From Mesodorylaimus sp. YZB2_4 (Eukaryota > Nematoda > Enoplea > Dorylaimida > Dorylaimidae): 64,000 nt of DNA. The notes beneath the pieces are model-generated. The model was not told where the DNA came from. It worked only from the letters and a program-made list of their open reading frames with translations, and made no database searches. Each line of letters starts with the position of its first letter. Position 1 is the stretch's first letter. Both the position numbers and the translations under genes were made by a program. Positions 29,904 to 54,258 of this stretch are shown piece by piece. Where the stretch lies: positions 62,001-126,000 of the forward strand of contig JASANH010000542.1 of the NCBI GenBank assembly GCA_030248295.1. Reading direction: 5' to 3'.

Positions 29904-32900
29904 CTAAGCCCAAGTATTTCGAACGCGCACCACGCGTCTGCGCTCTCCAAATGATCCAAGATTATCTCGAATTTGCATTGATTCTGATTGGAACTGCATG
30001 GCTGGGCGATTTTGCACAGAGTCTGGCCCATTGATTGGCGGTGAAGCAGTGTTGGGGTTCACTGATCCAGGTGGTTCTTCAGTTTTGACCTCAGTTTGTG
30101 TGGGCTTATTAGCGGGTTTATCACTGGCTTGGTTAGAGTTTGGCTGACTTTGTTGGTCATAACCTGTTTCATTGCTCAGCGAGTGCTCAGGTTCGGGCTG
30201 TACCATCTTTTTGCCGTTGCAGCATTTCTCTTTAAAGTGACGCCATAATCTCATGATCTGACGCCACACAAATGGGTTGCTTACAACGTAAGTGGTACTA
30301 ATTGCCATACCCAAGGAAACATTTAAGCCAAAAGCAAGTGTATATGACACAGGATTTCGTGTAAAAACAGCAAAGGAAGAAGCCATAAAGCTCAGGGGTG
30401 CGAGAATTACAATAAATATCACGCCGACACGAGAAATGTGCGCTACTATCAGCTGAACTTTGTCTACAAGATTAGGAGTGTAAATTTCTTGCAAAATATT
30501 ATCCATGTAGGCTTGTTCTAGGCTAGTCAATGCAATAAGTGTTACGGGTAGCATAATCAAAAAAATTCGTGTAACTGTGGTCTCCCAGTTTAGCATGCAC
30601 GAAAATGGTGTCCCTAACTCATTAAAAAGTGTCTGAGATATTGCAAAAGAAGTTAATGCTGGGGCTCCCCAAGCTAAAACTATGAATGACTTCCAGTCAC
30701 CGTTCCAACCCCAACCCCCAGAAGTGACACCTGTTGTGATGTAGTATATGTGGTATGTTTGAAAAAGTGCTAAGAGCAGATGAGCCCCTCGAAAAAAGAG
30801 CATGAGAGCAGACATCCAGTTACAAAGAACCTGACTGATACCAGTGATGGATGGGCTGTTAAAGAACAAGATCAGACCTTGCTCTCCACAAATCGCGATC
30901 AATGAATGCAGTTTGAGACACTCCAATGGGCTTGAATCATAGAAAACACCAGAAACGATCAACGAGACACCAGCATTACCAAGAACCCACAAATTACCAA
31001 GGTTGCCAATGACCTGGTTGTATATTTGGATGGGGTCATATGTGTAACCCGATGGAATTTCGCATTCTAGTCCAATAAAGCCGCTTATGCACTTGCAATA
31101 ATAACTTGTAATATTGTTGTAGCAATCGCCAAATCGACATGGGTCTGTACTACAGTGATCAATTTCATCCTGGCATGCTACTCCCTGATAGCCAGGAAAG
31201 CAAATACATGAGAACTTATCCTTCTTACATCCTAAAGTGTTTGCTGCGAAACAAATGGCATAGCTAGAGCAAGGCCAAACTGATGATTCACTTAGGTCGT
31301 AAAATGATGAGCCAGAAGTGATGTCCCAAACAGATTCATTAGCTGAAGGAGGGTTTGCTTCGTCATTTCGAGACAAATTTGTGATGGGATTTTGTGAATC
31401 AACTTGCAGTCCTTGGGAATTTGATAATGACGGGTTTGGGAAATAAATCGTTCCAGTGACAAAATGGTTTTCCGCAGATTGCCCAGTATATCCATTATAA
31501 GACCCAAGAGGCCTAGTGGGCCCATCGTCAGTTTCTGGTAGACCAGAAAGATTGTCATCAGCCCCCGGAGGACCAGAGTAATTGCCATCAGCAACTGGAA
31601 GACCAATGGTTTTGTCAAAAACCCCCGGGGTGCCAGTATTTTTGTCGTCAAACCCAGGAACACCAGTTATTCTGTCATTACTTCCTAGAGAACCAGGGTT
31701 TTTGACATTGATCCCTGGAAGACCAGAGCGATTCTCATCAGCTCCTGGAGACCAAGAGAGATTCTCATTAACTCCAAGGTCGCCAATGTTTTTGTCATCA
31801 GAATCTGGCGGCCCAGAGTGATTGGCATCAGCTCCTAGGGGTCCAGTATTTTTGTCATCAGTTCCTTGGGGACCGCTGTTGTTGTTATCAGCTCCTGGAG
31901 GTCCAGGGGGGTTGTTGTCAGCTCCTGGAGGAACAGAGTGATTGTCATCAGCTCCTGGGCGATGAGTATTTCTCTCAGGAACTCCTGAGGGACCAGTGTT
32001 TTTATCATCAGCTGGTGGAGGTCCAGAGTGATTGTCATCAGCTCCTGGGCGATGAGTATTTTTCTCAGGACCTCCTGAGGGATCAGTGTTTTCATCATCA
32101 GCTCGTGGAGGTCCAGAGTGATTGTCATCAGCTTCTGGAGGAACAAAGCGATTTTTATCACCTTCTAGGCGATGGATATTTTTGTCAGGAGCTCCTGTGG
32201 GACCAGAGTGATCGTCATCAGCTCCTGGAGGAGCAGAGTAATCGCCAGCTTTTGGGGCATGGGTATTTTTGTCAGCAACTCCTGGCAGACTGGGATTTTT
32301 GTCATCACTTCCTTGGGGACCACTGTTGCTGTTATCAGCTCCTGAAGGTCCAGGGTGTTTGTCGTCAGCTCCTGGAGGAACAAAGTGATTGTCATCAGCT
32401 CCTGGGCGATGAGTATTTTTCTCAGGAACTCCTGAGGGACCAGTGTTTTTATCATCAGCTGGTGGAGGTCCAGAGTGATTGTCATCAGCTCCTGGGCGAT
32501 GAGTATTTTTCTCAGGACCTCCTGAGGGATCAGTGTTTTCATCATCAGCTCGTGGAGGTCCAGAGTGATTGTCATCAGCTTCTGGAGGAACAAAGCGATT
32601 TTTATCAGCTTCTAGGCGATGGATATTTTTGTCAGTAGCTCCTGTGGGACCAGAGTGATCGTCATCAGCTCCTGGAGGAGCAGAGTGATCGCCAGCTTCT
32701 AGGGCATGAGTATTTTTGTCAGCAACTCCTGGCAGACTGGGATTTTTGTCATCACTTCCTTGGGGACCACTGTTGCTGTTATCAGCTCCTGAAGGTCCAG
32801 GGTGTTTGTCGTCAGCTCCTGGAGGAACAAAGTGATTGTCATCAGCTCCTGGGCGATGAGTATTTTTCTCAGGAACTTCTGAGGGACCAGTGTTTTTATC

Positions 32901-35900
32901 ATCAGCTGGTGGAGGTCCAGAGTGATTGTCATCAGCTCCTGGGCGATGAGTATTTTTCTCAGGACCTCCTGAGGGATCAGTGTTTTCATCATCAGCTCGT
33001 GGAGGTCCAGAGTGATTGTCATCAGCTTCTGGGGGAACAAAGCGGTTTTTATCAGCTTCTGAGCGATGGATATTTTTGTCAGTAGCTCCTGTGGGACCAA
33101 AGTGATCGTCATCAGCTCCTGGAGGAGCAGAGTGATCGCCAGCTTCTAGGGCATTAGTATTTTTGTCAGCAACTCCTGGCAGACTGGGATTTTTGTCATC
33201 ACTTCCTTGGGGACCACTGTTGCTGTTATCAGCTCCTGAAGGTCCAGGGTGTTTGTCGTCAGCTCCTGGAGGAACAAAGTGATTGTCATCAGCTCCTGGG
33301 CGATGAGTATTTTTCTCAGGAACTCCTGAGGGACCAGTGTTTTTATCATCAGCTGGTGGAGGTCCAGAGTGATTGTCATCAGCTCCTGGGCGATGAGTAT
33401 TTTTCTCAGGACCTCCTGAGGGATCAGTGTTTTCATCATCAGCTCGTGGAGGTCCAGAGTGATTGTCATCAGCTTCTGGAGGAACAAAGCGATTTTTATC
33501 AGCTTCTAGGCGATGGATATTTTTGTCAGTAGCTCCTGTGGGACCAGAGTGATCGTCATCAGCTCCTGGAGGAGCAGAGTGATCGCCAGCTTCTAGGGCA
33601 TTAGTATTTTTGTCAGCAACTCCTGGCAGACTGGGATTTTTGTCATCACTTCCTTGGGGACTATTGTTGCTGTTATCAGCTCCTGAAGGTCCAGGGTGTT
33701 TGTCGTCAGCTCCTGGAGGAACAAAGTGATTGTCATCAGCTCCTGGGCGAGGAGTATTTTTGTCAGACTACAGTGCACCCTAGGGGACCAGAGTGATTGT
33801 CATCAGCTCCAACAGGACTAGAGTGATCGCCTCCAGGTCCTGGAGTAGCAGGATTGTCAACACCTCCTAGAGGGTCAGAGTGATCATCATGAGCCCCCGG
33901 AGGCCCAGAGTGATTGTCATTAACCCCAGAAGAACCAGAGTGAATGTCATTAGTTCCTGGATTATCAGGATGATTGTCATCACCTCGTGGAGGAGCAGTA
34001 TTTTTGTCATCAGACCCTAGGGGACCAGAGTGATTGTCATCAGCTCCAAAAGGACTAGAGTGATCGCCTCCAGGTCCTGGAGTAGCAGGATTGTCAACAC
34101 CTCCTAGAGCGCCAGAGTGATCGCCATCAGCCCCCGGAGGCCCAGAGTGATTGTTATCAACCCCAAAAGGACCAGAGTGAATGTTAGTAGTTCCTGGATT
34201 ATCAGGATGATTGTCATCACCTCGTGGAGGAGCAGTATTTTTGTCATCAGACCCTAGGGGCCCAGAGTGATTGTCATCAACCCCAAAAGGACCAGAGTGA
34301 ATGTTATTAGTTCCTGGATTATCAGGATAATTGTCATCACCTCGTGGAGGAGCAGTATTTTTGTCATCAGACCCTAGGGGACCAGAGTGATTATCATCAG
34401 CTCCAAGAGGACTAGAGTGATCGCCTCCAGGTCCTGGAGTAGCAGGATTGTCAACACCTCCTAGAGCGCCAGAGTGATCGCCATCAGCCCCCGGAGGCCC
34501 AGAGTGATTGTTATCAACCCCAAAAGGACCAGAGTGAATGTTAGTAGTTCCTGGATTATCAGGATGATTGTCATCACCTCGTGGAGGAGCAGTATTTTTG
34601 TCATCAGACCCTAGGGGCCCAGAGTGATTGTTATCAACCCCAAAAGGACCAGAGTGAATGTTATTAGTTCCTGGATTATCAGGATGATTGTCATCACCTC
34701 GTGGAGGAGCAGTATTTTTGTCATCAGACCCTAGGGGACCAGAGTGATTATCATCAGCTCCAAGAGGACTAGAGTGATCGCCTCCAGGTCCTGGAGTAGC
34801 AGGATTGTCAACACCTCCTAGAGCGCCAGAGTGATCGCCATCAGCCCCCGGAGGCCCAGAGTGATTGTTATCAACCCCAAAAGGACCAGAGTGAATGTTA
34901 GTAGTTCCTGGATTATCAGGATGATTGTCATCACCTCGTGGAGGAGCAGTATTTTTGTCATCAGACCCTAGGGGCCCAGAGTGATTGTTATCAACCCCAA
35001 AAGGACCAGAGTGAATGTTATTAGTTCCTGGATTATCAGGATGATTGTCATCACCTCGTGGAGGAGCAGTATTTTTGTCATCAGACCCTAGGGGACCAGA
35101 GTGATTATCATCAGCTCCAAGAGGACTAGAGTGATCGCCTCCAGGTCCTGGAGTAGCAGGATTGTCAACACCTCCTAGAGCGCCAGAGTGATCGCCATCA
35201 GCCCCCGGAGGCCCAGAGTGATTGTTATCAACCCCAAAAGGACCAGAGTGAATGTTAGTAGTTCCTGGATTATCAGGATGATTGTCATCACCTCGTGGAG
35301 GAGCAGTATTTTTGTCATCAGACCCTAGGGGCCCAGAGTGATTGTCATCAACCCCAAAAGGACCAGGGTGAAAGTCATTAGTTCCTGGATTAGCAGGATG
35401 ATTGTCATCACCTCGTGGAGGAGCAGTATTTTTGTCATCAGACGCTAGGGGACCAGAGTGATTGTCATCAGCTCTAAAAGGACTAGAGTGATAGCCTCTA
35501 GGTCCTGGAGTAGCAGGATTGTCAACACCTCCTAGAGCGCCAGAGTGATCGCCATTAGCCCCCGGAGGCCCAGAGTGATTGTCATCAACCCCAAAAGGAC
35601 CAGAGTGAATGTCATTAGTTCCTGGATTAGCAGGATGATTGTCATCACCTCGTGGAGGGCCAGTATTTTTGTCATCAGCCTCTATGGGAACAGTATTTCT
35701 GTCATCAGATCCTAGATGACCAGAGTGATTGTCATTAGCTCCAAAAGGACCAGAGTGATTGCCTCCAGGTCCTGGATTAGCAGGATTGTCATCACCTCCT
35801 GAAGCACCAGAGTGATCGCCATTAGCCTCTGGAGGCCCAGAGTGATTGTCATCAGCTCTTAGAGTGGCATGGTGATTGTCATCAGCTCTAGGAGGTCCAG

Positions 35901-38900
35901 AGTGATTGTTATCAGGTCCTAGGGAACCTGTGTTTTCGTCATCAGCTCCTGCAAGTCGAGTGTTGTTGTCATCAGTTGCTAAATGATCAGAGTTATTGTC
36001 GTCAGCTTTGCCGCTGTTTGCTCCTGATGTAATCGGGTTCTCAGAGGCATTTTTCAAGGGGTCAGTGTGCGTGTCATGAGCTTCTGGACGATGAGTGTCC
36101 TTGCCATAAGATTTTGGGGAACCAGCATCAGCTTCAGCTTCAGCTCCTAGAAAATTCCCTGGAGGACCCGCGTGTTCGTTGTCAGAGCTCGAAGGGCCAG
36201 TATTTTGGTTGTTAGCTCCAAGTGGCCCAGTATTACTGACAGAATTTACCACAGGACCAGTATTTCCGTTGGAAACTCCTAAAGAACCAAGGTGGCCATC
36301 TTCAGCTTTTCCATGAACAGTTTCCCAACTGCCTAATGTTAGAGGGCCAGTGCGTCCATTTTCAGCTCCCAAAGTGTTTGTGGTTTCATTGTTGTTGAGT
36401 GGATGACTGGTGCGTTCACTATCAGGCCTAAGAGGATCAATGCTCCCGCCAGTAGTTTCAAGAGGAACAATGCGATCACCATCAGCTCCTAGAGGCCCAG
36501 TGTGGGCGATGTCTGCTGCATGAGAGTTAGTGCTAATACTGCCATATTTTGGGGGATCTGTGTATTTGACATCAGCGCTTGCAAAGCCAGTGCCCCCACT
36601 GTTTCCTCGTAGAGGACCATTGAGTCCGATTTCAGATCCTGGATTGCCAGTACGAGTATTCTCAGTATCTGCTCCAAGAGCAACAGTGCGCCAATCTTCA
36701 ACACCCGCAGGACCAGTAATACTATTGTTCTCTTTCAGAGAATCAGTGTTTCCACTGTTAGTTCCAAAGGGATCAACGTTATTGCTATAAGATTCTTGAG
36801 GGAATGTGTTCTTGCCTGTAGCATCTAGACGACCAGTGTGTCCATCATCAGATCCCGCAAGACCATAACCTCCTCCATCACGAATCGAAGGAGCAGTGTC
36901 TCTGCTATCAATTCCTGAAGGGCCAGTATATTCGCCATTTGCTCCAATAGAACCAGTATTTCCATTGATGTATTCTGGGTGACCAGTGCTATCACTATTA
37001 TCTCCAAGAGGACCAATGTGTCCATCTTCAGCTATTGGAGGACTAGTCTCAATTCTGTTTGATTCCGATTGGCTGATGTATACGCCTTCAGCGCTGAAAA
37101 GGCTATTGTTTTCATTGTTGTCTGATGGAGGTTCAGTACGTCCACTATCAGGCCCCAGAGGAGTAATGTTCTCCCTGGCTGCTTCCAAGGAATTAGCAAG
37201 TTTGTCGAGATCTCCTGGAGGCACAGTGTTCGCGCTGATCTGTGCAGAAAAACGAGTATGCATGCCGTCTGCTGAGCTAGCATGAATGAGTCCATCATCA
37301 GTGTCAGAGAGACCAGTGCGTCCGCTTTCAGATCCTGATGGGCTAATGTTTTTACTATACGCAGCTTCAAGAGGATCTGTGAGATCGTCAACAGCAACTG
37401 CAGTGCCAGTGATGCGTCTGTCATTTGCTAGAGAAACAGCGCTTCCACTGTCAGTTCTCAAAGGATTAGCGTTACTGCTGCTCGTTTCGGGAGGAAAAGG
37501 GTTATTGTTAGTGGCTTCAACAGTATTAGTGTGTCCGTCTCCAGCGCCTCCAAGACCTGTTTGCCTGTCATTAGCTTCTCGAGTACTTATGTCCAATGCT
37601 GGGGGACTGGTGTGCCCGCTTGCAATTCCCAGAGAACCGCTCATTATAGTAGTCGCTCCAAGATGACCAGTGTGGCCATCATCAGCTCCAGTGTGTCCCG
37701 TTTCCGCTCCTAGAGGACTGGTGTAAATGTAATCAGCTCCTGGCGTTTCAGAATTCAAACTGTTGTTTTCAGATGAGACAATGTGTGCAGTGTTCGCTTG
37801 GTCAAGACTAGTGTTACTATTGTCATATGCTGTGGTTTCAACAAGACTAATCTTCCCACTATCAGCTCCTAGACGACCAGTGTTACCGCTGGCAGCTCCA
37901 GGAGTACCAGTGTGCTCAACCGCTACAGAATCAGTGTTTCCAATGCTGCTTGCGGGAGGAGCTGTGGCCGCTCCATCTTCTCCATTTCGGGCATTGTTCG
38001 AACTCTCATATTCTTGAGTATCAGCGCGTCGGATATCCTCTATATCAGTGGTGTTTTTATTGTCCTTTGTTGTAGGGACAGGGGTCTCAGCAGCATGGCC
38101 TCTTTTATAGCCTAGGGGATCAGCGTCATCATTGTTAGATCCTGAAGGGCTAGTTTCGCTACTGGCAGTTTCTATAGGACCAGTTGTCATGGTATCCAGT
38201 CTTGGCAAACTAGTGGTAGGCGCGGCACTGTAAAGAAGCTTTGTTAGAGAGCCTGCATGACCAGTTTGTTCACTGTCAATTGGTGCATGGCTTTTATCAT
38301 CCGCTACAGGACTAGTTTGCTTGATATAGTAAAGCCCATCGTCATTAGACCAAGCAATCGTGTTGTCGCTGTCAGATCTTGTAGTGCCAGTGTTCTTTTC
38401 TGTTCTATCCAGACTACCTGATTGAGATTCTAAAATATGAGTTAAGCTGCTTTCAGGCTCTGGATAGCTTGCGTGCCCAGTCTCGTGTAACGCAGCGCCC
38501 AAGGCAGCAATTCTAGCAGTTGTCAGATGCGACGTTTGAAAAATATTGCTTGGTGCTTTCAGTGATGTGTGTTCAAATGAGCTTGCCGCGAGAGAAAAAT
38601 TGGTGGGTGACATTTCTCCACTTGATGTCACTGATAAAAAAGTGGGTGCACTCAGCGGTGTTTCTGTGAATGTGCTGACTGCAAATGCTGGTCCAGTGGG
38701 TGAAGCTTCCACAGACGATGAAATAGTTAGATATTTGAGTGAGCTTCCTAAATTTGTGATTGAAAGCGCTGTCGATTGATTCGAAGATATGCTTGCAGTC
38801 TCTGGTATATCAGATGGTGTGCCGGTTTCTGTGGAACTTCTCGCGAGATCATCTGATGAAGCTGTACTGCTGAATGTTGCGTTAATATTATTCAGCGTGG

Positions 38901-41900: not shown

Positions 41901-44900
41901 CTGATGCTGCTGAACTACTAGATGTGGCGTCGATTCCAAAAAGCGATGCTGATGATGTTTCTTCCAATGTGGTAACTGTAGTTACCTCATCGGTGGGTGA
42001 AGTTTCCAAAAAAGATGTAACTTCTACACTTGTTTTAGGGCTACCTCGATTTATTGTTAAAGTAGCTGTCAAAATGCTTGATGCTGAATCTGAAGATACA
42101 CTTGTGGCCTGGGATATATCAGTTTGAGTGCTCGCTTTTGTTGAGCTTTTCTCAATATCAGCTGATGCTGCTGAACTACTAGATGTAGCGTCGGTTTCAA
42201 AACGCGATGCTGATGATGTTTCTTCCAATGTGGTAACTGTAGTTACCTCATCAGTGGGTGAAGTTTCCGAAAAAGATGTAACTTCTACACTTGTTTTAGG
42301 GCTACCTCGATTTATTGTTAAAGTTGCTGTCAAAATGCTTGATGCTGAATCTGAAGATACACTTGTGGCCTGGGATATATCAGTTTGAGTGCTCGCTTTT
42401 GTTGAGCTTTTCTCAATATCAGCTGATGCTGCTGAACTACTAGATGTAGCGTCGGTTTCAAAACGCGATGCTGATGATGTTTCTTTAGATGTGGTAACTG
42501 TAGTTACCTCATCAGTGGGTGAAGTTTCCGGAGAAGATGTAACTTCTAGACTTGTTGAAGGACTATCTGGATTTTTTGTTGAAGTTGATGTCAATATGCT
42601 CGATGCTGAATCTGAAGATACACTTGTGGCCTGGGATATATCAGTTTGAGTGCTCGCTTTTGTTGAGCTTTTCTCAATATCAGCTGATGCTGCTGAACTA
42701 CTAGATGTAGCGTCGGTTTCAAAACGCGATGCTGATGATGTTTCTTTAGATGTGGTAACTGTAGTTACCTCATCAGTGGGTGAAGTTTCCGAAGAAGATG
42801 TAACTTCTAGACTTGTTGAAGGACTATCTGGATTTATTGTTGAAGTTGATGTCAATATGCTCGATGCTGAATCTGAAGATACACTTGTGGCCTGGGATAT
42901 ATCAGTTTGAGTGCTCGCTTTTGTTGAGCTTTTCTCAATATCAGCTGATGCTGCTGAACTACTAGATGTAGCGTCGGTTTCAAAACGCGATGCTGATGAT
43001 GTTTCTTTCGATGTGGTGAATGACGTTACCTCATCAGTGGGTGAATTTTCTAAAGGAGATATAGCGGTTGGACTTGTTGAAGGACTATTTGGATTTGTTG
43101 TTGAAGATAATGACAATATGCTCGATGCTGAATCTTCTGATACGCTTTTTGATTCAGATACATCAGGCTGTGTACCACTTTCTGCGAAACTCATTCCGAG
43201 ATCAGTTGACCTTCCTGAACTACTTGATCCGAAATCGACTTCGTCAAGCGATGTTGATGATGCTTCTGTGGATGTGGAGACTGTAGTCACTGCAGCACTA
43301 GGTGAAGATTTCTCTGAAGATGTAACTGTTAAACTTGTTGGAGGACTATCTGGATTTATTGTTGAAGTTGATGTCAATATGCTCGAAGCTGAATCTGAAG
43401 ATTCACTTGTGGCCTGGGATACATCAAGTTGTGTACTAGTTTTTGTCGAAGTTTTTTCAAGATCAGTTGATGCTGCTAAACTGCTAGGCGTTTGATCGAT
43501 TTCACCAGGCGATGTTGATAATATTTCTTTCGAGGTGCTCTCTGTAGCTGCTGCATTTACAGGTGAAGTTTCCCCAGTCGATGTTGTAGTCGCGGTTGTG
43601 CTTTCTGCACTTGCTGTAATTGAAATCAAGATCATTTATGCATAAGATGAAATGCTTATCATCTCTGATATTGTTGATGCGAAGGTCTTGGTTGAACCTC
43701 GAGGAGGATCTGTCAGTGTATCTTTAAGACTGGGTGTTTCATCACATTTGCAAGGTTGGATCGACCATGGGCCCATAACTCTGCTTTCCGTATCCCATTT
43801 TTGGCCAATCCTTTTTTAATTTCTAGAATTTTACATTATACGTTTATGAGTGTGTCCAAAACCTATTGCTTAATGCATAAAACTGTGTTCTGCGCGACCG
43901 AGTGATTTTTTATCACTCATAGTAACCATACATAAGCTAAGACGACCATGTACCTGACCATGTCGCCGTAGAAGTGAAATTTGTCATTGGTGGCAGTGAT
44001 TGCATCATGTTTGTTCCTTAAATCAAGTAGTAATGGCCGAATTTTTCCCTTCTTTTTTAGTATGTCGATCAGTATTTGTTTAGCAGTAGTCACTAAACAC
44101 CGGATCAGGTCGGGTTCAACCCGACGGGTCGGGTCAACCCGACCTGACCTGACCCGATCCGACCCGAAAGTCCCTGAGCAGAAATTTCGGGTTGGGTTTA
44201 CCCGAATTCGGTATAAGTAGTTGAAGTTCCTCGCGATAAAAACCATATACAAATGCTCAGAACGTGGTGGCGATGGTGTAAAGGTGACTGTGAGAAAGTA
44301 TGAGATGGAGACATCTAACGCACGCGAATCTTCATCTTTTGTTATTCCCTAGTTATCTCTAGTAAATGCGATAACGTTCCTTCATATTTACCACAATAGT
44401 GGGCAAATGATTTTTTAAAAACCCCAGATCTAAAAGCGACTAGGGTCTGTCCACTGGAGACAAGATTTAACCAATCCGAATAATAGGCGTGAAAAATAGA
44501 GACAACTCTGTCATAACTTTCGGAGTCTGAGACAGCTTATCCTTGGTTGAACATAAAAATGCCTAAATATATATGAGCCCCAGGCTAGAGTTGCATCTAG
44601 TCTTCACAAAAGATATTGCTTACAAAGTCATACTGTGCTGGACACTAGCTCCTGTCAGAACCTCCACTACTGATGGAAGGATGTGAGGGTACCTATCACT
44701 TTTGAACACAGCAAACTGTTCTGCAATGCTAACATGGATCGTAGTCGAGGGGGCTATTATTGATACATATTTGGTGTTTGGGTACAGACTATACGGCTCT
44801 TCCAGCCAGGTATACCCAGGAAGTTATGTAATATTCAGGAATCAAATGTGATTGTAGATACTCCTAGGACCTGCTAAAAGTTATCAATTACTTCTTACGT

Positions 44901-47900
44901 TAGAGTATGGCTAGTCTCACTCATTCATCAGAGTTGAATGAGAACTTTCACATATGAACCCTTCCCTTTGCAGAAATTACTAAGAAAAATTGGTCATTCT
45001 CCCAGCTTACAATTTGTGTGACATTCTCGGAAGGTACGCAGAATGAGAACGTGGAATGAAAGACTTTGTGCATGCATTCATGAAGCATATTCTGCAAATC
45101 CTGGAGTCGAACAACTATGAGAAGGTTACTGTAGTTGCTAATAGCAGTAACTTGCAAAATTTTCGTATTTTTGACCCGTTTGACCCGATCTTTCAAAAAA
45201 GTGACCCGACCCGACCCGACCCGAAAGTACCTGACCCGATTCGGGGTCTAGTAGTCACGCATTATATTTTTCTATCAGTAGGTTAAGTAGTCGCACCTTA
45301 ATCTGGGAAAAGCTCGTTCTACTAAAAGGATTCTGAACACTTAAAAATTTTTTCAATTAGTTAGTACTTACGAGTTAGTGCGCTATTATAATTTTGATGA
45401 ACGCGCAGTAATTGCTGTTTTTTAACTGTAGTGATCTCGTCTTCTTAGGAGACTGTAAATTTTCCCTGGTGACTGGAGAGATTGTTATTATGCTGGTATG
45501 GCTAGTTCTTTCTAGGAATGAAAATCGTAACTGCTAGCTAATGACCTATGTCTCTGTAAATCATGTTGATTCAGATATATTTCCCAGAAAACGATCTTCG
45601 ATTGCAAATAACTGACAGGTGACTACGTTTAGGTAATGTACCTTCCACAAACTCCATGATCTGAGTTTGAGTTGTGTGAAATTGAACATTTCGCTATTGC
45701 CTATTCGTTTCGGGTCTTCCTTTCAATAAAGTACTTGATGGAACGCCCAAAGCCAGGTCAAAGGTGAAAGGCTGATAGTGACTGCTTTTTGTTATTAGAC
45801 AGAGAGAGCCAGCTCCCTAAAGTCAGATGGCCAAAGCAATGGAGGACCTAGGCACATCACTTCTCCAGGGTGTTAGCTCTGGTGTATGCTCAACCAAGTG
45901 ATCGTTTCAGAGGATTATAAGCATTCAACACAGTAAAACAGATGGAGAATTAGATTTACGGCAACAATATGAGTACCTGTTGTCGTTGATGTCTACTGCT
46001 CATACCTTAACTGTCTACTGATCAAACTATAACGTTATCTCCGTGATTAGGGAGTCAAATCTGCAAGAAACTGATGATAAGTACTTCCCAGTTTCTCTAG
46101 CCAAACAAAGCGCTCGAGGGTTAGAGAACACATCGAGGGCCACGGCCGTGGCCAGGCGGCTAAAGGCGTCTGCCTCTCACAGTGGGTGCGCACTTAAAGG
46201 AGACGGTTCGACTCTCGCCTCGGTGCAGAATGATTGTCGAGAATGTGGTCCTTAGCCCTCTAGTGCGCTGCATGGTGCTTGGCTGTGGCTAAAGTGTGAC
46301 ATGACATGACACATACTTGCGAATAATTTTTGACCCATGTGGGAGTCGAACCCTCTTCCGTGCGTGCGCACCATGTGTGAGAGAAGCGGCTATCGCTACG
46401 TCTTGAGTTACTGTCAATAGTTACTCTTACTTCTTGCTGTAAGACTATAAAATGGCCAATAAAGCCAGAAAATTTTGGAATGAGAACCTTGTTCAAAACG
46501 AGAGTTATGAAGCGGTAATGGTCCAAGGAAGCAAGGTCCTATGTTGTCACATCATAAAAGCGAAACCATGTAGAGCAACAGTGCTTCCCTCACCTGAACT
46601 AAACGTGGAGCGAACACTTGTTTCAGCTTCAATTATCTGTGGTGGTGTGCTTTTCTGTGCGGAAGTTGTTGTAGTCGTAGTTGTTGCCACCACTTAAGAT
46701 AAATATACATACTAAATGGATTTCAGTTGTCGTCGAACCACAGAGAGTAAAAGTTTTGAATAAGATTAGTACATCCGAGCTGTATGCCTCATTGTTGTCT
46801 GGATAATTTGCATAAAAATTTGCGGCGTGAATGGCAGGAAAGTGTTTTATTCTTATAATCAGTCAAGAGAGAGAGAGGTTGCAAGATGGCCATGAATGCG
46901 CATGGTTCAAAGATTAACATCACATCTTACCTGATGATGTTGTTGGAGTCGATAAAACTGTCGATGATGGCGATAATGGCTTAGAAGTTGTTTCTAAAAT
47001 CAATAAGAATCTAAATAGTAGAAAATACCAGGGGAATGGTGTTTTTAGCAAGAAGTCTGTAGATGCGGTTAACAACTTGAAAATGACTAGTAGCCGCGTG
47101 AGAGAGATACATATCTGAATATAGTGCACAGAATATAGAATAATAGCACAACTGCATATAGAATAAAAGCACAACTCAGAATACAAGTTTTCAAACCTGT
47201 AAAACCTTGTGATTTTCTCAGTTTTGTGTCTGCCTTTCGATACCACTTGATCTTTTGCCCTGAATGTCAGCTGGTGCGGACATGCGGCAAAAAAATTTTT
47301 GTGTGTCACTAGCCAGAACGAGTCAGCTACTTCTCAGTGGAGGACCACCTCGGATAGGGCCTACGAAGACAATATGTCTTGTCGTTTCAGGCACTATTCG
47401 CTCACAGGAACACAGAATAAACAGATGGAGAATGAGATTAATGGCCATTACCCTGTGTGACTGCTGTTGTTGATGTTGACAAAAAAGTCGTTGATGAACT
47501 TGCGCGATCTGATTCTGTAACAAATCGCTTGTTCAAATGTGAAAAAACCTCATATTGCAAAATAGCCTTACCAATCGTCGTCGAACTGCCGAGCGTTGAC
47601 ATGTCTATCAAAAACACTGGTATAATTAAGCAGATCTATAAATTTTTCTGCTTATGTCTAAAATTACTGCTTGACAATTGCTTGATAGGCGTCTTCTTTT
47701 AAAAAAAAACCGTTGGAGAACATTTGGATAAATACAAGGTATAATGTATGTGCTATACAGGCGTAATTATGTGAAATCAACAAATCTTTTACTCAGATTA
47801 TTGCTCGTTGATGATGATGTCGGCAAGATGGTTGTGGAAGTCGGAACGAAGCTGGAGCCTAGTATGCAGAATGAGCAGATTTATTTACGGCTATAGATCC

Positions 47901-50900
47901 CAAAATTACTTACCGATAGTGAGTTTTGTGCAACGATTAGGTGTTGCGCCTACAATTCAGATAACGTCTTTAAAATTTTTTTCCTTCGCTGACGATGAGA
48001 TGAAAACGAAATGTGCGCAATACTACAGTATGTGCTATATAGGCGTAAATTATGAGAAATCTCTTACTCATGGTGAGGCTCGTTGATGATGATGTTGGCA
48101 AGATGGTTGTTGAAGTCGGAACAAAGCTGGAGCCTAGTATGCAGAATAAGCAGATTTATTTACGGCTATAGATCCCACAATTACTTACCGATAGTAAGTT
48201 TTGTGCAACGATTAGTTGTTGCGCCTAAAAATGCAGATAGCGTTTTAAAAATTTTTGTCCTTCACTGACGATGAGATCAAAACGAAATTTGCTCAATACT
48301 ACATGCTGAATAGGCGTAAATTATGAGAAATAAAAAATCTTTTACTCAGGGTGAGGCTCGTTGATGACGATGTTGGCAAGATGGTTGTGGAAGTTGGAAC
48401 AAAGCTAGAGCCTTAAGTACGCAGAATTAGCAGCTTTATCGATGGCTATAGATCCCACATTTACTTACCGATAGTAAGTTTTGTGCAACGATTAGTTGTT
48501 GTGCCTAAAAATACAGATAACAACTTGTCCTCCTGCCATAGATGTAATGTGATGATTTCGTGTCTGGGAGGTAGAGTATAGTTTTCCCAACTTGCACCTT
48601 ACCTTGCAACTCGCCTGCAAACTTTCAAAAGTCCAATGCTTTGCATGGCATGAGCTACAGTCAGTAGTCAGAGTCGTTTAAAAAGATATCAGGATACTTT
48701 GCCGGAGCAGAGGTGATCAGGTAGGGGTAACAAGTGCGTAAATACTACAGGCATAAGAGAATAGAAAATGTATTACTCGTCATGGTGCTTTTTGATGTTA
48801 TCGGCATGACAGTAGTGGTTTCCGGAGGAGAAACGGACTCTAAAATTTATGGAAGTACTGGAAGTAATTTCATGCTCTAGCTCCAACACTTACTTTTGAT
48901 GATTCTTACGCAGCTTTCGGTCGCTGCGGCTTAAAAAGAATAACCTTTTTCAATTTAAAAAATTAAAAGCTTCATGCTGGATGTGATATATTTTTTGTGC
49001 CCCCCAATGCTAGTATGATTACGAGATATTATGCTGTTGTCCAAAAGCTGTTACACGTGTGTTACATGTACAGTACTGACTATATATTTTATGCAATTAT
49101 TGTTGCTCATGCAAACATTTTGTTGGTTTATAGTTTGGTTGTTAAGGTATGACGGTTAAAAACAGTCCTATCAGAACTCTATCGTCTGAAAGTAAGGGGT
49201 ATGCAGCTTCCTCATCACATGCGTTGCTTTCAGACGCGGAAAGGCCAATTATTTCATTATTTCTAAAAAAGTCTGTTATGACAGACTCGAAACTTTTAGA
49301 CCAGCCAATGCACACAGTGGTGTCGCGAACGCGAGCTAAGATCAAGGGCTTCACAGCCCAGGCATGTTGGGAATGGGAAGTGATAATGTAAAGGTGGTGA
49401 TAGAAGATACAAGTGATCATTGCATAGTGTCGTTTTATGAGAAGCGAGTGTACGGTCGGTTAATCAAGTGCTCTATCGAAATATAATCTATATATATTAA
49501 ATCAACGTGTGATTCTGCCGTCGAGCTAGATCAAGTTCCACTGCGCAAACAATCGACGACAGAATTATTTGGTAGCAGAACGTGGTTGATTGCGGCTATC
49601 AACGATATCAACGATGGCGGTCGTTGCGGCGAGGCTTCGAAAACAGCTCGCCCCTCGACGCCTAGCCCTTCGCCACCTACTCGACGCAAAACCTAATTTG
49701 GCACTTATCAACGAAGAAACTACTCATGAAATCGACAAGTACAAGGCCCGCTTGCGAGCGCTTTTCGAGGGCTATAAGAACAAGGACGACGACTCTTTCA
49801 ACAAGCGGCGGAGTGTCGCGAACGCGAGTGAAGATGAAGGACATGATAGCCTCAGTGGTAGTGGTGTAAAGTAAGAGTGAGAGGAAGGTGATAGAAGATT
49901 CTAGAGAGGAGGGGGAGTGTCGTTTTATGTGAAGCGAGTGTACGGTCGTTTATCAAGTACTCTATTGAAATATACCTATATAAATCAAATCAACGTGTGA
50001 TTCTGCCGTCCCGCTATATCAACTTCCACTGCGCGACCAGGCGACGACAAGTGGAACCAGGGCTTAGGATGGCTGGTCTACTCGGCCACAAGAAAAAGGA
50101 GAGGTGGCCCGACATGCTGCGCACTGCACACAGTGTACGTAGAATCACTCGCATATATACTGTATTCATGCATTTAGAGGTCAGCATCAAAGCCACAAAG
50201 CCTTTTATTCTGTGTACTGCTGATTTTCAGACAGGCTCCCCAAATTAAGCTGTGCTGTTTCATACGAGCAACCTGACTATGCTAAAGCTGTAGCGCTGCG
50301 AGTAAAGTGATATGGCTTATCCTTAAATGGCTAAACCTCGAAAGACACTCTCAGCAATCTTTCCCCCTCCTTCCAACTTTATGTTCATGCTCATGGTTTA
50401 TCATATCAGTACCTATATCAGTAATCATCATAGACTGTTTCAACTATACCGATATTACCATGATCACGCGATTCATCTAACTCACCGTTTTGTGCACTCG
50501 GACATGTGTGGTCGACGTGTAAGTGCTCGTTTAACAAAGCCTCATCACCTCGAAATTACTTAACCTTGCTCGTTGTCATATTCTCAGAGTTTCGCGTTTT
50601 CGACTATTACTTCATGGAATTCTGTGATACCGAGTGATATCGCTTTCGGTAATTTCGAGGAATTCAAAAGTTATGTTTCTAAGCTTCGTTTTTAGACCTT
50701 TTTATCCTGTTTTTCTCGTATTTGTGCTGTGCCATTTCAGTGGGCTAATAAGCTTTTCGGCATAGTAAATATAGCATAGCATAGCATAGTAATGAACCGC
50801 TCGAGGATAAAGGGATACATAACACAAAATGATTTACCTAGCCGCGTCTTGAACACTACCTACTATGAGCATGTGTGCGCATAGCCAGAGAGTTAGACAC

Positions 50901-52736
50901 TCCCAACCCACTAGCAGACCACAAGCACAGGATTACAGGACCCTCTGCTCGTTGCCAGGATCAGTCGTCCTGTTGATATTAATGCGGATAAAAGCAGCTT
51001 CTGCTTAGACTTTTTCCTAGACCATAGTTGCGCTTAGCAGTGGCCGAGTAGACCAGCCATCCTAAGCCCTGGTTCCACTGTGTGCATTGGCTGGTCCAAA
51101 AGTTTCGAGTCTGTCATTACAGACTTTTTTCGAAATAATAAGACCGTTTTTCGTTTGTTTTGCTACAAACTAGTTTGGCCCAAAACACCTCACCGATCGA
51201 TCATTTCATACTAGTCAGAAACTCTTACTGATGGAATGCACAGATTTTTCGAGTATGTACTAAGATATACAGGCGGCAGGAAAAACAACAAATTAAGTAC
51301 TTCTTTTATGCATCTGTCACGCCTGAAACCTTATCTCTGACTGGGCAAAATAGTCAAGGACCACCCTTATATTCCTTGTTCGCAATAACGTTCCTCTGAC
51401 TCGTGAAAACAAGAGAAACAAAAACCAAAAATTCTAAACCGTGAAGGAGTCGAGCTGAGAGCCTCGTGGTCGGAAAACAAAAGTTCTGTTATAAAGCCAC
51501 ATTCTGCCACAAACAAATGTGCTGTAAATAAACTAAATAAACAATGTAAAAAGGGGCAACCTATCGGAGACTGAAGCCAGCCTAAAAAGAACTGGGTCAT
51601 GCTCGGGGTGATCTGAACTTCTGTTCTGTCAGAAGCTGGAATGCAGGATCCGCAACGTTTGTCAGGTTAGCTCGAATGTTTCTCGACAATATTACCCCCG
51701 CATCAAATAAAAGATGTGCTGCCACGGAAACTCTTTCCACATCATTTATATTCGTTCACATATTCTCAATTTATTATCGGCAAATTTATTGCTGTCCACC
51801 AAACCCATCTTCGTTAGAGCCCGCTGAGCCTAGCCAATCAATGGCGCTGCGCCACAACCCGTTCAGCTGATGTTTCTAAACGCCGCGCCAAAAATGAGAA
51901 CAGAAACATCAGCGCCTGCCACTTTCCATAGTCGATAACTCAAGAACGATTGAACCACAAAAGGTGATTTTTTGCAAGCTTTGCAATATAGGTCAGATCT
52001 GCAATCATGTCAATTATTATCGAAATCCGTCCAGTATCTGACGAGTGACGGTTTAAAAAAGGCCAAGAAAATGACTAAGCTTTTTTTAGGAATACTGTAA
52101 CTTTTTAGAAATGGATGCTCTTGAAAAATCTGTGTGAAAAGGCGGATTCTGAAAGTTTAAGCTTTTAGAAAATCTAAGTTTCACCGCTGTCCGATGTCCG
52201 GTGATCTATGTAGGTTGGTCTTTATCCTCCTCCTCCTCCTCCTCCTCCTCGTCTTCTCCCCCCCTGAACAAGAAATCGCGTATTCTGGAACTCGACAACG
52301 GCCAGATGTATTTTGATAAAAATTGGCACGATTGTAGATTCGGCCGACTCTGTCATGTGTGCAAAAAATCAAAAATTTTCATCAACCGTTCTCGAGTTAT
52401 TAGCCGGCGAAAATCGTCCTTTAGCATTAGGCGTCTGGTTGGGTGGTCTAACCGTAAGCAGGCACTACCGTGCCTGCTGATAAAGCGGCGGAGTAATAGA
52501 TAGTCAGATCAAACAAGGGTCGATTTTAGTGGGGGCATGTATTGCAAATTACTACAGGCATAAGATAATAGAAAATGTATTACTCGGTATGGTGCTTGTT
52601 GATGTTATCGGCATGACAGTAGTGGGTTCCGGAGGACAAACGGACTCTAAAATTCATGGAAGTACTGGGAGTAATTTCATGCTCTAGCTCCAACACTTAC
52701 TTTTGATGATTCTTACGCAGCTTTCGGTCACTGCGG
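29904..52736 (-). CDS. Giant mucin-like EGF-7TM receptor gene (3' part; 5' end not found)
   Basis: One minus-strand gene, inferred from continuous reading phase. A 13.7-kb terminal exon (29904-43613) is preceded by 13 mini exons: 46594-46692, 46931-46993, 47452-47514, then a/b pairs 47793-47858+47914-47949, 48068-48133+48189-48224, 48346-48411+48469-48504, 48777-48839+48894-48929 and 52584-52646+52701-52736. All are phase 1-1 with GT-AG. From N- to C-terminus: Thr/Ser-rich mini-exon peptides, a Ser/Thr-rich mucin-like region (about 1,670 residues), Gly/Pro/Asp/Asn/His-rich repeats (about 2,400), two EGF-like domains, seven transmembrane segments and a cytoplasmic tail of about 118 residues. 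Likely role (inference): a heavily O-glycosylated cell-surface receptor. The helical domain looks adhesion-GPCR-like, but no GPS cleavage motif precedes it. A 10-nt excess near 33.77 kb breaks the frame, and the signal-peptide exon is missing. Alternatively two adjacent genes meet at that break. Confidence 0.7.
30261..31004 (-). other. Seven-transmembrane domain of the EGF-7TM gene
   Basis: Seven hydrophobic segments of 18-25 residues. TM1 is around LGNAGVSLIVSGV and TM2 around LIAICGEQGLILFF. A Cys before TM3 (VLCNW) can pair with one in the second outer loop (FSCMLNW, the C-x-x-x-W pattern of family B receptors). TM4 holds AWGAPAL, comparable to the G-W-G-x-P of secretin/adhesion receptors. 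TM5-TM6 contain MLPVTLIAL and ILAPLSFMASSF, and TM7 ends with SNPFVW. A basic helix-8-like stretch with a CC pair (possible palmitoylation) opens the tail. It is uninterrupted by introns. Family placement (adhesion-like) is inference from these sparse landmarks. Confidence 0.75.
31062..31271 (-). other. Two tandem EGF-like domains next to TM1
   Basis: The first repeat has six Cys in the EGF spacing and ends CICFPGYQGVAC. The second (DEIDHCSTDPCRFGDC...CKCISGFIGLEC) begins with a DEIDHC start reminiscent of calcium-binding EGF modules, though the full calcium consensus is not complete. Only about 20 residues separate the last Cys from TM1, leaving no room for a GAIN/GPS module. Confidence 0.85.
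31500..36100 (-). repeat. Coding tandem repeats rich in Gly, Asp, Asn, His and Pro
   Basis: Decapeptide-like units of the type GADDNHSGPL, GSDDKNTAPP, GVDNNHSGPP and GTNNIHSGPF run through the giant exon. They are organised in higher-order repeats: about 447 bp (149 residues) repeated at least three times between 32.3 and 33.7 kb, and exactly 357 bp (119 residues) repeated at 34.0-35.3 kb. Both periods are multiples of three. Copies in the middle of each array are nearly identical and those at the edges are more diverged, as expected for unequal exchange. The acidic/His-rich composition suggests cation binding, but that is inference. A frame break lies inside the array near 33.77 kb. Confidence 0.9.
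33763..33775 (-). other. Frame break and premature TGA inside the repeat array
   Basis: The frame open from 43613 ends at a TGA (33763-33765). Compared with sister repeat units, which read GGG-TCT-GAT-GAC, this copy has GGG, then 10 extra nucleotides (TGCACTGTAG), then TCT-GAC. From there a different frame is open without a stop through the EGF and 7TM domains to 29904. The break sits where two higher-order repeat types meet, a place where an assembly could be wrong. No intron of realistic size restores the frame. Confidence 0.8.
36100..38550 (-). repeat. Diverged coding repeats (Gly/Thr/Ser/Asn-rich), transition zone
   Basis: Degenerate units of about 15-20 residues (for example around GHTGPLG, GNTGSLGA and SGRTGPS) link the Ser/Thr region to the Asp/His-rich region. 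They share the Gly-anchored rhythm of the younger arrays but are far more diverged, so this looks like the older part of the repeat domain. The frame is intact throughout. Confidence 0.75.
38550..43613 (-). repeat. Mucin-like Ser/Thr-rich coding repeats, 261-bp unit
   Basis: About 1,670 residues are very rich in Ser and Thr, with spaced Glu and Asp, typical of O-glycosylated mucin domains. An 87-residue (261-bp) unit is nearly identical in successive copies at about 41867-42127, 42128-42388, 42389-42649, 42650-42910 and 42911-43171, and more diverged in older copies towards 38.6 kb. The exon begins at an acceptor, ATTACAG|CA, at 43613, matching the phase of the upstream mini exons. The Met at 43635 is preceded directly by an in-frame TAA and is probably not the start. 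Confidence 0.85.
44090..44212. repeat. ACCCGA/TCGGGT-rich self-complementary cluster
   Basis: Alternating GGGTCGGGT and ACCCGACC blocks form several nested palindromes (for example GGGTTCAACCC) within about 120 bp. A related direct array, GACCCGACCCGACCCGACCC, lies at about 45210-45229, within a motif-rich stretch of 45172-45247. Both may be ends of one 1.15-kb element or independent copies. Confidence 0.6.
45172..45247. repeat. Second ACCCGA-rich cluster
   Basis: Short tandem GACCC / CGACC units, interrupted once by TTTCAAAAAAGT, then ending CTGACCCGATTCGGGG. It is similar in motif and ending to the cluster at 44.1 kb in the same intron. Confidence 0.6.
46137..46312 (+). repeat. tRNA-derived SINE (short family)
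   Basis: The A box is CGTGGCCAGGCGGCTAAAGG and the B box ACGGTTCGACTCTCGCC. The body carries GATTGTCGAGAATGTGG and CCCTCTAGTGCGC, and the tail is made of repeated TGACA units. It is the best-preserved copy of the family in the window. Confidence 0.8.
46325..46420 (-). repeat. tRNA-derived SINE head, opposite orientation
   Basis: On the minus strand, TAGCGATAGCCGCTTCTCTC with GTGCGCACGCACGG is followed by a B box, GAGGGTTCGACTCCC. It abuts the tail of the preceding SINE, making a tail-to-tail pair. Confidence 0.6.
47790..48510 (-). repeat. Three tandem about-280-bp units, each with two mini exons
   Basis: Units at about 47.79-48.03, 48.04-48.31 and 48.32-48.52 kb share exon and intron sequence. 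On minus, each has a 36-nt exon (peptide of the type ATTNRCTKLTI, one Cys) with donor ATCG|GTAAGT. About 55 nt later comes a 66-nt Thr/Ser/Pro-rich exon (type VPTSTTILPTSSSTS). Every exon is phase 1-1, so any unit can be gained, lost or skipped without changing the frame. Diverged pairs occur at 48.78-48.93 and 52.58-52.74 kb. Confidence 0.85.
48745..48970 (-). repeat. Duplicated mini-exon pair D (twin at 52.55-52.77 kb)
   Basis: This segment is about 90% identical by eye to 52547-52765. Both contain a 36-nt exon (AVTESC-type or AATESC-type peptide) and a 63-nt Thr/Pro-rich exon in the same phases as the 280-bp units. The duplicates are separated by 3.6 kb of transposon-derived sequence. Confidence 0.85.
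49321..50049 (+). mobile_element. Mini LTR retrotransposon (TRIM-like), 729 bp
   Basis: Two direct terminal repeats, 49321-49561 and 49814-50049, both start TGTCGCGAACGCGAG and end CGACGACA (TG...CA). A 5-bp target duplication AGTGG flanks the element (49316-49320 and 50050-50054). The internal part is only 252 bp. It begins with TTTGGTAGCAGAACGTGG, which looks like a primer-binding region, and keeps a short gag-like start (ARLRKQLAPRRLALR... with a charged helix). There is no polymerase. The host repeat occurs uninterrupted at 11.12 and 51.03 kb, confirming the insertion boundaries. The two LTRs differ at many positions, so it is not recent. Confidence 0.88.
50560..50792 (+). repeat. LINE-like 3' tail with (ATAGC)n
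   Basis: The segment ends in about four ATAGC units (around 50766-50788), preceded by TGCTGTGCCATTTCAGTGGG and TAATAAGCTTTTCGGC, a layout often seen at the 3' end of non-LTR elements with a short tandem tail. No reverse-transcriptase coding is recognisable just upstream. Confidence 0.35.
51030..51148 (-). repeat. Dispersed repeat, inverted copy with empty LTR site
   Basis: Reverse complement of the sequence that flanks the mini-LTR element at 49.3 and 50.05 kb. It has CACAGTGGAACCAGGGC uninterrupted (AGTGG at 51075-51079 on the complement), then GGATGGCTGGTCTACTCGGC. It is the pre-insertion form of the site. Confidence 0.85.
51597..52505 (+). repeat. Foldback-type repeat, inverted twin at 63.0-64.0 kb
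   Basis: About 0.9 kb align in inverted orientation with the right end of the window. Shared blocks are CAATTTATTATCGGCAAATT, TGTCCACCAAACCCATCTTC, AATGGCGCTGCGCC and GTCGATAACTCAAGAA. Internally the element has its own diverged inverted arms: AACTCAAGAACGATTGA near 51.94 kb against AACTCGAGAACGGTTGA, complement, near 52.39 kb, each followed by a matching series ending TCGAAATCCGTCC or similar. It contains a (CCT)n stretch at 52.23 kb. Non-coding. Confidence 0.75.
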
Positions 52737-52765
52737 CTAAAAAAGAATAACTTTTTTCAATTAAA
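52547..52765 (-). repeat. Duplicated mini-exon pair E (most 5' exons found)
   Basis: Twin of 48745-48970. It contains exons 52701-52736 (36 nt, one Cys) and 52584-52646 (63 nt, Thr/Pro-rich with one Cys), both phase 1-1. Further upstream exons, including the signal peptide, must lie beyond and were not identified. Confidence 0.75.
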
Positions 52766-52999
52766 AATATATTAGTATATTGCTTGCTGATTTTATCTAT
52801 AGCAACGCGGCTGCAAATAATAAGCTCGTAGTTTAGGTAGCAGCGATATTTTGTATTCAAGTGTAGTGAATGAGAGAACAGATGCATCACCCGAAATCCT
52901 CTCAGGCCATCAGGTGCTTTTATTGGAAAATATCTAAATTTGCCTTTTGTGTCACTCATTGTCTTGTCTCACTTTTGAAGCTGAAGGTTTCATTCAGTT

Positions 53000-54030
53000 G
53001 CCCAGCATAAGAAGCTGTTTTTTCTTTATTGCAAGACATTCTCCTTTTCCTCAATTTGTCTTTGCCTCCTTTTGGAATCCTACTGTAGGAACATAGGCAA
53101 GCGCAGGAATCATTCTGTTTTCAAGGCAAAATCAGCATCGTTTGCGTATCTTCCCTGCAGGCCAGCACCGTGGACACGGCGCCAAACAGACTGGCCCCAG
53201 TTGAAAAAGCAGCCGCGACTCGAGGAATTATGGAACTGATCCTGAACTGCATTGATTGCTGCTAATTCGAAATCAGTCATGATAGTTTCATGATTCAAAG
53301 TTGGCCTTCTGACTTTCAACTCGCTCATCAGTCGCGTATATGTTCGCTCGGTTTTGTCAGGTAGCAACGCGAAAATCGAAGGAATGACATTGTGATAGTG
53401 TACGCCGTGAATGGAATAAAGCTGCTGGAATAAAGGCAGTGGAGTTTTGAAGTACCGTCTGCGTACCAATGGATATCGCGCCAGGAGATCCAAATTTCTC
53501 TCTGTCGAAAACATCAACATTTTGTCAGGTCCGGGGCCGCTATCCCAGATCAGAAACTTTTCGCCATTCTCCGTCAGCCGATAGTGATCTGGAATCACCA
53601 AATCTTTGAGCGACGTTGGGTTGGGAGGAGCATCATTCACTTGTTGCCGAACACGCTGAACAGTTCGTTTCATGCAGGAGATCGCAGGAAGTTGGCCTTC
53701 AATCGCAGCATTCAATCCGACTGCGGTGGTCGCAATGATCTGGCGCGTGCTACCTGCTGTGGTCGCTGCAGCTCGCTCTTTTATTTTGGAGACAAATTTT
53801 TTCATGCTAACTTCCCCTGGATAAGCCGAGTGATTATGGTCAGCTGGTTGCTTGACAATTTGATCGTCCATAGTGCGCACTCGCGATTTGCATTTTACAA
53901 ATCGGATACATGGTGCATTTCCAGATTCGTTTCCCAGGAGTATCAGAACTTTCTTTTCGAAAAAGCAACATATTCAAAAAGAACAAATCTTTCCTTTTTC
54001 GATTTTTTATGTCCTTCAAAGGCATGATTT
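53000..54030 (-). pseudogene. Broken FLYWCH-MULE transposase
   Basis: Remains of a Mutator-like element transposase. The FLYWCH zinc finger lies around 53.85-54.02 kb, with W-K-C, a CKC-type pair and the final HNHS. Then comes a linker with PDHYRLTENGEKFLIWDSG. The MULE core has FKTPLPLFQQLYSIHG, IPSIFALLPDKTERTY and the second catalytic-region motif TDFELAAINAV, followed by FNWGQSVWRRV. The frame is broken at least three times: between the finger and its last His, across the first catalytic Asp segment (near 53.46 kb, where the expected ADGTF-type motif appears only in another frame) and before the C-terminal IPALAYVP block near 53.1 kb. It cannot encode an active enzyme as read. Confidence 0.8.
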
Positions 54031-54118
54031 CAACCTTGCAAAGAGAACGTATGGAGCAACTGAGCTCACTTCCAAAATTCCAGCCCCTCTGTCTGTTCCC
54101 TTTTATGTGTTAGGTATC

Positions 54119-54258
54119 TCGACATTATACACATAAGGGATATTCGCTTTTCGACATTTATGCAGGTCGACATTTCGGCGCCCGACATACTGGCGGCACG
54201 ACATTTTGACTACGACTTTTTGACGCGCGACATTTTTTACCCGACGTTTTGACATGAA
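54119..54258. repeat. Irregular array of CGACATTTT motifs
   Basis: Eight variants of CGACATTT(T) (including CGACATAC, CGACTTTT and CGACGTTT) occur within 140 bp at irregular 13-20 bp spacing. The array lies directly upstream of the broken MULE transposase and may be part of that element's terminal region. Confidence 0.6.

Follow-up and report, generated by a model that had tools for sequence, protein, structure and literature searches.

Does a run of thousands of repeat-derived residues, a pair of EGF modules and a seven-transmembrane (7TM) domain, encoded one after another on the minus strand of a nematode genome (Mesodorylaimus sp. YZB2_4), belong to a single receptor, and if so to what kind of receptor? 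The window, that is, the whole stretch of DNA analysed here, comprises 64,000 nt (assembly GCA_030248295.1, contig JASANH010000542.1, positions 62,001 to 126,000); coordinates are positions within it, and frames were read with the standard genetic code. The initial annotation of this DNA had proposed an EGF-7TM receptor whose giant stalk is mucin-like in one part and built of decapeptides in another, with a class-B-like 7TM domain and no GAIN domain, read along one uninterrupted path; the receptor stands, and the uninterrupted path does not. We consider it probable that the gene belongs to a family of EGF-7TM receptors without GAIN, in which the 7TM domain either derives from class-B (adhesion/secretin) G-protein-coupled receptors (GPCRs) or is distantly sister to them. 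The identity of the receptor is likewise probable in our judgement; the working model of its function, given further below, is tentative.

The receptor gene lies on the minus strand, as had been claimed, and the claimed order and composition of its parts were also right. It consists of two long minus-strand open reading frames (ORFs) in different phases, frame A (43635-33763, 3,290 aa) and frame B (33767-29904, 1,287 aa). Near the end of frame B, twelve cysteines form two six-cysteine EGF-like modules (31173-31271 and 31062-31154), recognised by sequence, conservation and profile, and eleven of the twelve are invariant or nearly so in the family described below. A family profile matches EGF pairs of Notch and Delta (best E 3.6e-24), which confirms the two EGF domains; the ectodomain thereby holds the two or more EGF modules expected of an ADGRE receptor. 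The EGF cysteines end at residue 902, and the first transmembrane helix (TM1) starts near residue 912 in the structural model. Because only about ten residues (EIPSGYTYDP) separate the second EGF module from TM1, there is no room for a GAIN domain or GPS motif, and a Pfam search of the window protein at E<=10 found neither, so that the claim of a receptor without GPS or GAIN before TM1 was well founded. No FAVLM-like tethered-agonist stretch was found in this linker. GPS and GAIN were likewise not found in a 13-row family alignment (Pfam, E<=1) or in three longer paralog frames, and two family rows match the GPR128 N-terminal domain weakly (best E 0.017). The genome carries eight GPS matches, all at other loci, and two of its GPS-bearing genes, which we labelled latrophilin-like, have the FAVLM motif. 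The lack of GAIN and GPS is a property of this EGF-7TM family; two marks of adhesion GPCRs, a GAIN domain with its GPS motif and a tethered agonist, were thus not found in these searches, and neither was an HRM domain in Pfam scans of both frames, the candidate mini exons lying outside the scan. In ADGRE receptors the EGF modules are distal, and a GAIN-bearing stalk lies between them and the 7TM domain; that order was not found in the window protein, whose EGF modules adjoin TM1.

When the genome (145 Mb, 1,067 contigs) was searched with the protein of the window gene, 41 matches reached E<=0.01. Besides the gene itself they comprise 12 loci at E<=3.8e-45, a fragment at a contig end (L022) and 27 weaker matches, 25 of which fall in the EGF part. 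All 12 relatives, which are 30-44% identical to the window gene, have an open frame across the match, and the window gene is one of at least 13 family loci. The C-terminus of one relative (L012) looks truncated, and another (L021) has one recognisable EGF module. The outer parts differ between members, being a C-type-lectin-like domain, a Ser/Thr/Gln-rich stalk or a giant stalk. In nine of the 12 (L013-L021) the same frame encodes, in place of a giant stalk, a further domain, of which five copies were aligned; the model of one of them (L019, mean predicted local distance difference test score, pLDDT, 70.6) matches C-type-lectin-like entries among the matches listed, the profile of the extra domain matches lectins weakly (best E 0.013), and Pfam found no lectin family in three of the relatives that carry it. 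The stalk of another relative, L011, comprises 418 residues with 28% Ser+Thr, and the giant stalk is specific to the window member of the family. Seven near-copies (L014-L020) form a cluster under strong purifying selection, with ratios of nonsynonymous to synonymous substitution (dN/dS) of 0.04-0.11 in all 21 pairs; distant paralog pairs gave 0.17-0.40 where a value was given. These seven loci, each with the order lectin-EGF-EGF-7TM, are nearly identical (dS 0.03-0.19) and lie on seven contigs, and they may represent a recent expansion or uncollapsed haplotypes.

The C-terminal domain (30219-31034) was assigned by an AlphaFold2 model, Foldseek and a profile compared with the PDB. The model shows a helix 8 in addition to seven long helices, with a mean pLDDT of 59.9 and ten-residue means in the helices mostly of 70-88. 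Foldseek against the PDB placed CD97 first (E 5.3e-6), followed by ADGRG2, ADGRL3 and ADGRD1; ranks 1-18 were all class B1 or B2, and class B made up 44 of the best 50 matches. A profile of the 7TM domain alone, built from ten of the 13 family rows (three near-identical rows were left out; 277 columns), had four PDB matches at E<=10, of which three were ADGRD1 entries (E 0.0055-0.011), with an alignment spanning up to columns 14-272, and the fourth was an NKG2D entry (E 0.4). The ten-row alignment contains 32 invariant columns, among them a W--P pair in TM4 and the cysteines of TM3 and the second extracellular loop (C78 and C153), which align with ADGRD1 cysteines; the cysteine pair typical of adhesion GPCRs is therefore present, and their class-B type of 7TM domain is found by fold and by family profile, and weakly by Pfam. 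The family-B-like landmarks noticed earlier are in this way borne out by fold and, weakly, by sequence, and we regard the domain, with moderate certainty, as a divergent class-B-like 7TM domain. A cytoplasmic tail with a TAG stop (29904-29906) follows at 29904-30218.

The stalk begins in a large frame-A exon (33763-43613), with a candidate acceptor AG at 43615/43614 and a TGA at its end. Its first part (38533-43613) is mucin-like, with 1,693 residues, 46% Ser+Thr and no cysteine, and has 87-aa Ser/Thr repeat units at 41163-43537. Decapeptides follow in two blocks: block 1 in frame A (33766-38532; a transition zone and a 119-aa higher-order repeat), which together with the transition zone supplies 1,589 residues before the frame break, and block 2 in frame B (31509-33767; a 149-aa higher-order repeat), which supplies 753 after it. 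Of the 13.7-kb exon with two kinds of repeats that had been described, both repeat kinds are confirmed and the single exon is absent. Gly, Asp, Pro, Asn and His abound in the decapeptide part, which carries NHS sequons. In genome searches scoring the best candidates only, 15 of 15 decapeptide matches and 13 of 13 matches of the 87-aa unit fell at the receptor locus. Compared with 300 shuffles each, sequons show no excess in the Ser/Thr part (13 against a mean of 20) or in block 1 (29 against 23, largest 35), and they stand out in block 2 (15 against 6.4), below the top shuffle of 16. Frame A had no Pfam or NCBIfam match, and the decapeptides had no PDB match. Transmembrane mucins have a single membrane-spanning helix and a SEA domain. 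The window protein shares with them long Ser/Thr-rich tandem repeats, its model has seven helices, and Pfam scans of both frames found no SEA domain. Taking the 2.5 A per residue that a paper on ADGRG4 gives for mucins (PMC10687090), about 4,035 residues of stalk would extend to about 1 micrometre. The whole product would come to about 4,690 residues if the frame break is bridged and all five candidate exons described below are used; the earlier figure of more than 4,500 residues thus holds for a bridged gene and fails for the gene as assembled.

The main doubt concerns this break: the allele may be defective, the assembly or consensus may be wrong within the repeat, the gene may be a pseudogene, or splicing may remove the segment. 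Frame A terminates at a TGA (33763-33765), and frame B is preceded by a TAG (33768-33770). Relative to the repeat unit the junction (33763-33780) has 10 extra and 3 missing nucleotides, a net +7 nt on our reading of the alignment, and it sits at the boundary between the 357-bp and the 447-bp higher-order array; the coding motif runs in one frame from 38304 onward and in the other from 33740. The junction motif has one exact and one two-mismatch copy within the window, and no meaning for it emerged from these copies. Several observations weigh against the favoured reading. The single continuous reading path is not there, the frame being lost at 33763-33770; the test for stops in the decapeptides is uninformative, as only 0.07, 0.02 and 0.43 stops were expected; dN is close to dS within the repeats (means 0.019/0.017, 0.116/0.116 and 0.355/0.351), and there is thus no support for constraint at the residue level; dN/dS between L011 and L012 is 0.59; synonymous sites between the window exon and its paralogs are saturated, so that none of the seven pairs gave a dN/dS; and the first exon and the Ser/Thr exons upstream are candidates.

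Among the readings that start from this doubt, a pseudogene or null allele is the first to be weighed: the break would be real and fixed, the product would be no more than a secreted mucin fragment with CTVV at its end, and the EGF-7TM exon would be a young relic. Both frames do meet a stop at the junction, the lesion consists of sequence foreign to the repeat and is unlike a homopolymer error, neither AATAAA nor ATTAAA was found in the roughly 600 nt downstream of the receptor stop, and L012, with its dN/dS of 0.59 to L011, looks truncated as well. On the other side, the break is the only loss of frame seen in 13.7 kb, and the EGF-7TM exon of the window gene retains its conserved cysteines and 468 open codons. 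The six 87-aa units have accumulated 134 substitutions from their consensus, by which 6.2 stops are expected, and contain none (P ~0.002). As to coding in general, the 3,290 codons of frame A compare with a longest open run of at most 239 codons in 100 dinucleotide shuffles, and the region between the strong tandem arrays (36008-41162), into which weak similarity to the 87-aa units and decapeptides extends, has 1,717 open codons against a maximum of 211 (100 shuffles). The reading frame of the Ser/Thr part has been kept open, and the residues of the stalk are not measurably conserved. A pseudogene or null allele is unlikely.

Splicing within the repeats offers another way past the break, in that exitron-like introns could skip it and make stalk length variable. 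Between 33200 and 34400 there are 80 phase-compatible pairs of donors and acceptors above modest thresholds, for example CGAG|GTGATG at 33983 with ...CTTTGTTCCTCCAG| before 33712. These motifs also occur in the repeat units, however, and so need not serve splicing; the best donor scores 4.7 on our own scale, and the count of pairs comes without a control. We regard such splicing as quite unlikely.

A different objection leaves the frames aside and holds that the 7TM domain belongs to another seven-helix protein or another GPCR class, with landmarks acquired by convergence. The window 7TM domain alone matched no Pfam family, and the window sequence alone matched no PDB chain. Searched with 7tm_2, the genome yielded 47 matches, but the 13 family loci were not among them, and the best E-values of the family profile are about 0.005. 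Class A accounts for six of the best 50 Foldseek matches, the first at rank 19 (E 4.3e-5), with E-values within about twentyfold of the best match. The position of the class-B TM3 glutamate is occupied by a glutamine in the family. A comparison of the family with the two latrophilin-like receptors of the same genome, made without a negative control, gave a probability of 20% in local (E 0.0011) and 59% in global mode. What ties the domain to class B is the family profile together with a model whose mean pLDDT is 59.9. Nevertheless, fold search, profile search and Pfam agree on class B, and the PDB matches of the 7TM profile at E<=10 are the ADGRD1 and NKG2D entries only. Pfam recognised 7tm_2 in four of ten family members (best E 6.2e-4), the window's own domain not among them, and two members reached 18.7 and 17.6, below the cut-off of 20.6. 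No transporter family was matched, a possibility that the initial annotation had raised. Taken together this makes another class or another seven-helix protein very unlikely.

A locus of two genes, with frame A coding for a secreted mucin and frame B for an independent EGF-7TM receptor that has its own start, would fit the discontinuity of the frames but is highly improbable, since the first Met of frame B is residue 985, inside TM3 (a signal-peptide exon within the repeats lay outside the search), and since the decapeptide is found only at the receptor locus, yet on both sides of the break. Without a Met before TM3 the EGF-7TM part needs upstream exons, and an independent downstream gene is for the same reason unlikely; together with the shared decapeptide vocabulary, this argues that both frames are one ancestral gene.

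At the 5' end, a scan for exons of phase 1-1 with at least 50% Ser+Thr and acceptable splice sites found four on the sense strand and none on the antisense strand in 43640-56000, and none on either strand in 1-29900 and 56000-64000; in 14 stretches around paralogs it found five, four of them on the receptor strand. The Ser/Thr-rich mini exons of the initial annotation are in this sense borne out as phase-1 candidates. The gene model includes candidates at 46931-46993 (65% Ser+Thr) and 46594-46692 (50%), both listed in the scan, and two that are absent from its output, at 47452-47514 (60%, with a weak donor) and, as a weak candidate, at 43954-44016 (40%, under the limit of the scan), all four in phase 1-1. 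Two of the four scan exons (48133-48068 and 47604-47572) were left out of it. The first of these lies inside the intron region at 47750-48521, where a 275-bp unit is repeated in tandem about 2.8 times, and it is part of this unit that yields the Ser/Thr-rich, phase-1, exon-like stretch.

For the first exon, a scan of 43600-64000 at a donor score of at least 5, on our own scale, and a hydropathy of at least 1.5 gave two candidates on the sense strand and none on the antisense strand. The candidate at 54493-54415 has the strongest donor (6.0; phase-1, MQKMFQWNTAYSWLLLTLCSTQYLGS|G), a hydropathy of 1.62 and a single copy in the genome. The other, at 52887-52701 (donor 5.5, hydropathy 2.28), contains the exon at 52736 that had been claimed as the most 5' one. 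That exon is doubtful and we disfavour it, as the stretch of 241 bp around it recurs 3.8 kb away within this intron region (211 bp, 94%). A further candidate, at 47448-47406 (donor 4.0), is the sole one listed at a hydropathy of at least 2.0 and a donor of at least 4. We prefer 54493-54415 because of its donor and its ordinary signal-peptide length. Upstream of L011, one of three candidate signal exons (C24:663645-663567) and a Ser/Thr exon (660747-660625) form a similar layout. An ORF for a MULE transposase (2.2e-9) lies at 53113-53973 in the would-be first intron, on the same strand.

Adhesion receptors are usually explained by a GAIN domain that cuts itself and exposes a built-in agonist. 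For the receptor proposed here we suggest another course, in which the protein would enter the secretory route through a phase-1 signal exon, the one with the strongest donor (54493-54415) being the best candidate. The Ser/Thr part of about 1,690 residues would be O-glycosylated and stiff, the part rich in Asp, His, Gly and Pro, with its NHS sequons, would act as a hydrophilic spacer, and the EGF pair would pass ligand binding or pull directly to TM1. The receptor would then signal via G proteins without self-cutting or a tethered agonist, so that the whole might be called a membrane mucin held in place by a signalling 7TM domain (a "7TM-anchored mucin"). As a tentative working model, we propose a lineage-expanded, class-B-derived subclass that has dropped the GAIN and tethered-agonist switch, has coupled an EGF pair to TM1, and has swapped its outer part between a lectin domain and a genome-unique, rapidly amplifying stalk, which could reach about 1 micrometre and could vary in this reach between individuals by repeat number.

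Each part of this receptor has counterparts in known systems. Mucins of the MUC3/4/12/17 type have Ser/Thr tandem repeats, then EGF modules, then a membrane anchor, and the same order is found here; the window protein differs from them in having seven helices instead of one, no SEA domain that could be found, and a long acidic, His-containing decapeptide block. The EGF-TM7 receptors (ADGRE, CD97/EMR) resemble it in their tandem EGF modules, mucin-like stretch and class-B-like 7TM domain, and CD97 is its top structural match; in contrast to them, no GAIN, GPS or tethered agonist was found in the window receptor, its EGF modules adjoin the membrane and the stalk lies beyond them, and the stalk itself is much larger and contains decapeptides. 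ADGRG4 (GPR112) has, according to the paper cited above, a giant Ser/Thr-rich mucin-like spacer in an extracellular part of more than 2,700 residues (PMC10687090). The giant Ser/Thr-rich mucin-like spacer is a feature that the window receptor shares, whereas the pentraxin-like tip, HRM domain and Stachel mechanism of ADGRG4 were not found in it. Class-B 7TM domains without GPS also occur in the sponge Amphimedon, where one paper reports 12 of 40 adhesion receptors to lack GPS, some of them with short N-termini and a core 7tm_2 domain (PMC4302439); the family described here differs in its long N-termini, in that its 7tm_2 domain is barely recognised, and in the mitochondrial code of its genome, which is not that of sponges. 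A GAIN/7TM module is present in most holozoan adhesion receptors but absent from some, as a choanoflagellate survey states (PMC12716839). A GAIN-less EGF-TM7 receptor or repeat-stalked adhesion receptor of the present combination was not found among the papers listed in searches of the open-licence literature; the individual parts are known, and we have not seen them combined there before. Whether signalling needs the GAIN switch has been asked for BAI3: the abstract of one paper says that deletion of GAIN spared its neuronal functions, and one of the section headings says that GAIN is needed for NFAT signaling (PMC13322242). If our reading is true, a family with an adhesion-like 7TM domain joined directly to EGF modules would be a natural test of signalling without the GAIN switch, and the giant stalk would extend the mucin-spacer idea of ADGRG4 to a receptor that has no GAIN to pull on.

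Other coding pieces were noticed in the window and elsewhere in the genome. On the minus strand of the window there are two nuclear-receptor pieces, one at 15509-16930 that combines zf-C4 (1.9e-14) and a weak ligand-binding domain, and one upstream of it, at 20344-21519, with another, partial match to zf-C4 (1.8e-6); at 59735-60247 there is a Tectonin match (E 1.3e-6) that at 28.5 bits falls below the Pfam cut-off of 30. In the genome, COX1 has 15 matches on 11 contigs (among them C73:251445-254668), each with an in-frame TGA and several also with TAA or TAG, and one contig (C73) carries partial copies on opposite strands; these copies may be mitochondrial insertions or a rearranged mitochondrial contig. 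The best copy has TGA as Trp, AGR at expected Ser, ATA at expected Met and AAA at conserved Lys, a pattern that fits the invertebrate mitochondrial code used by many bilaterians.

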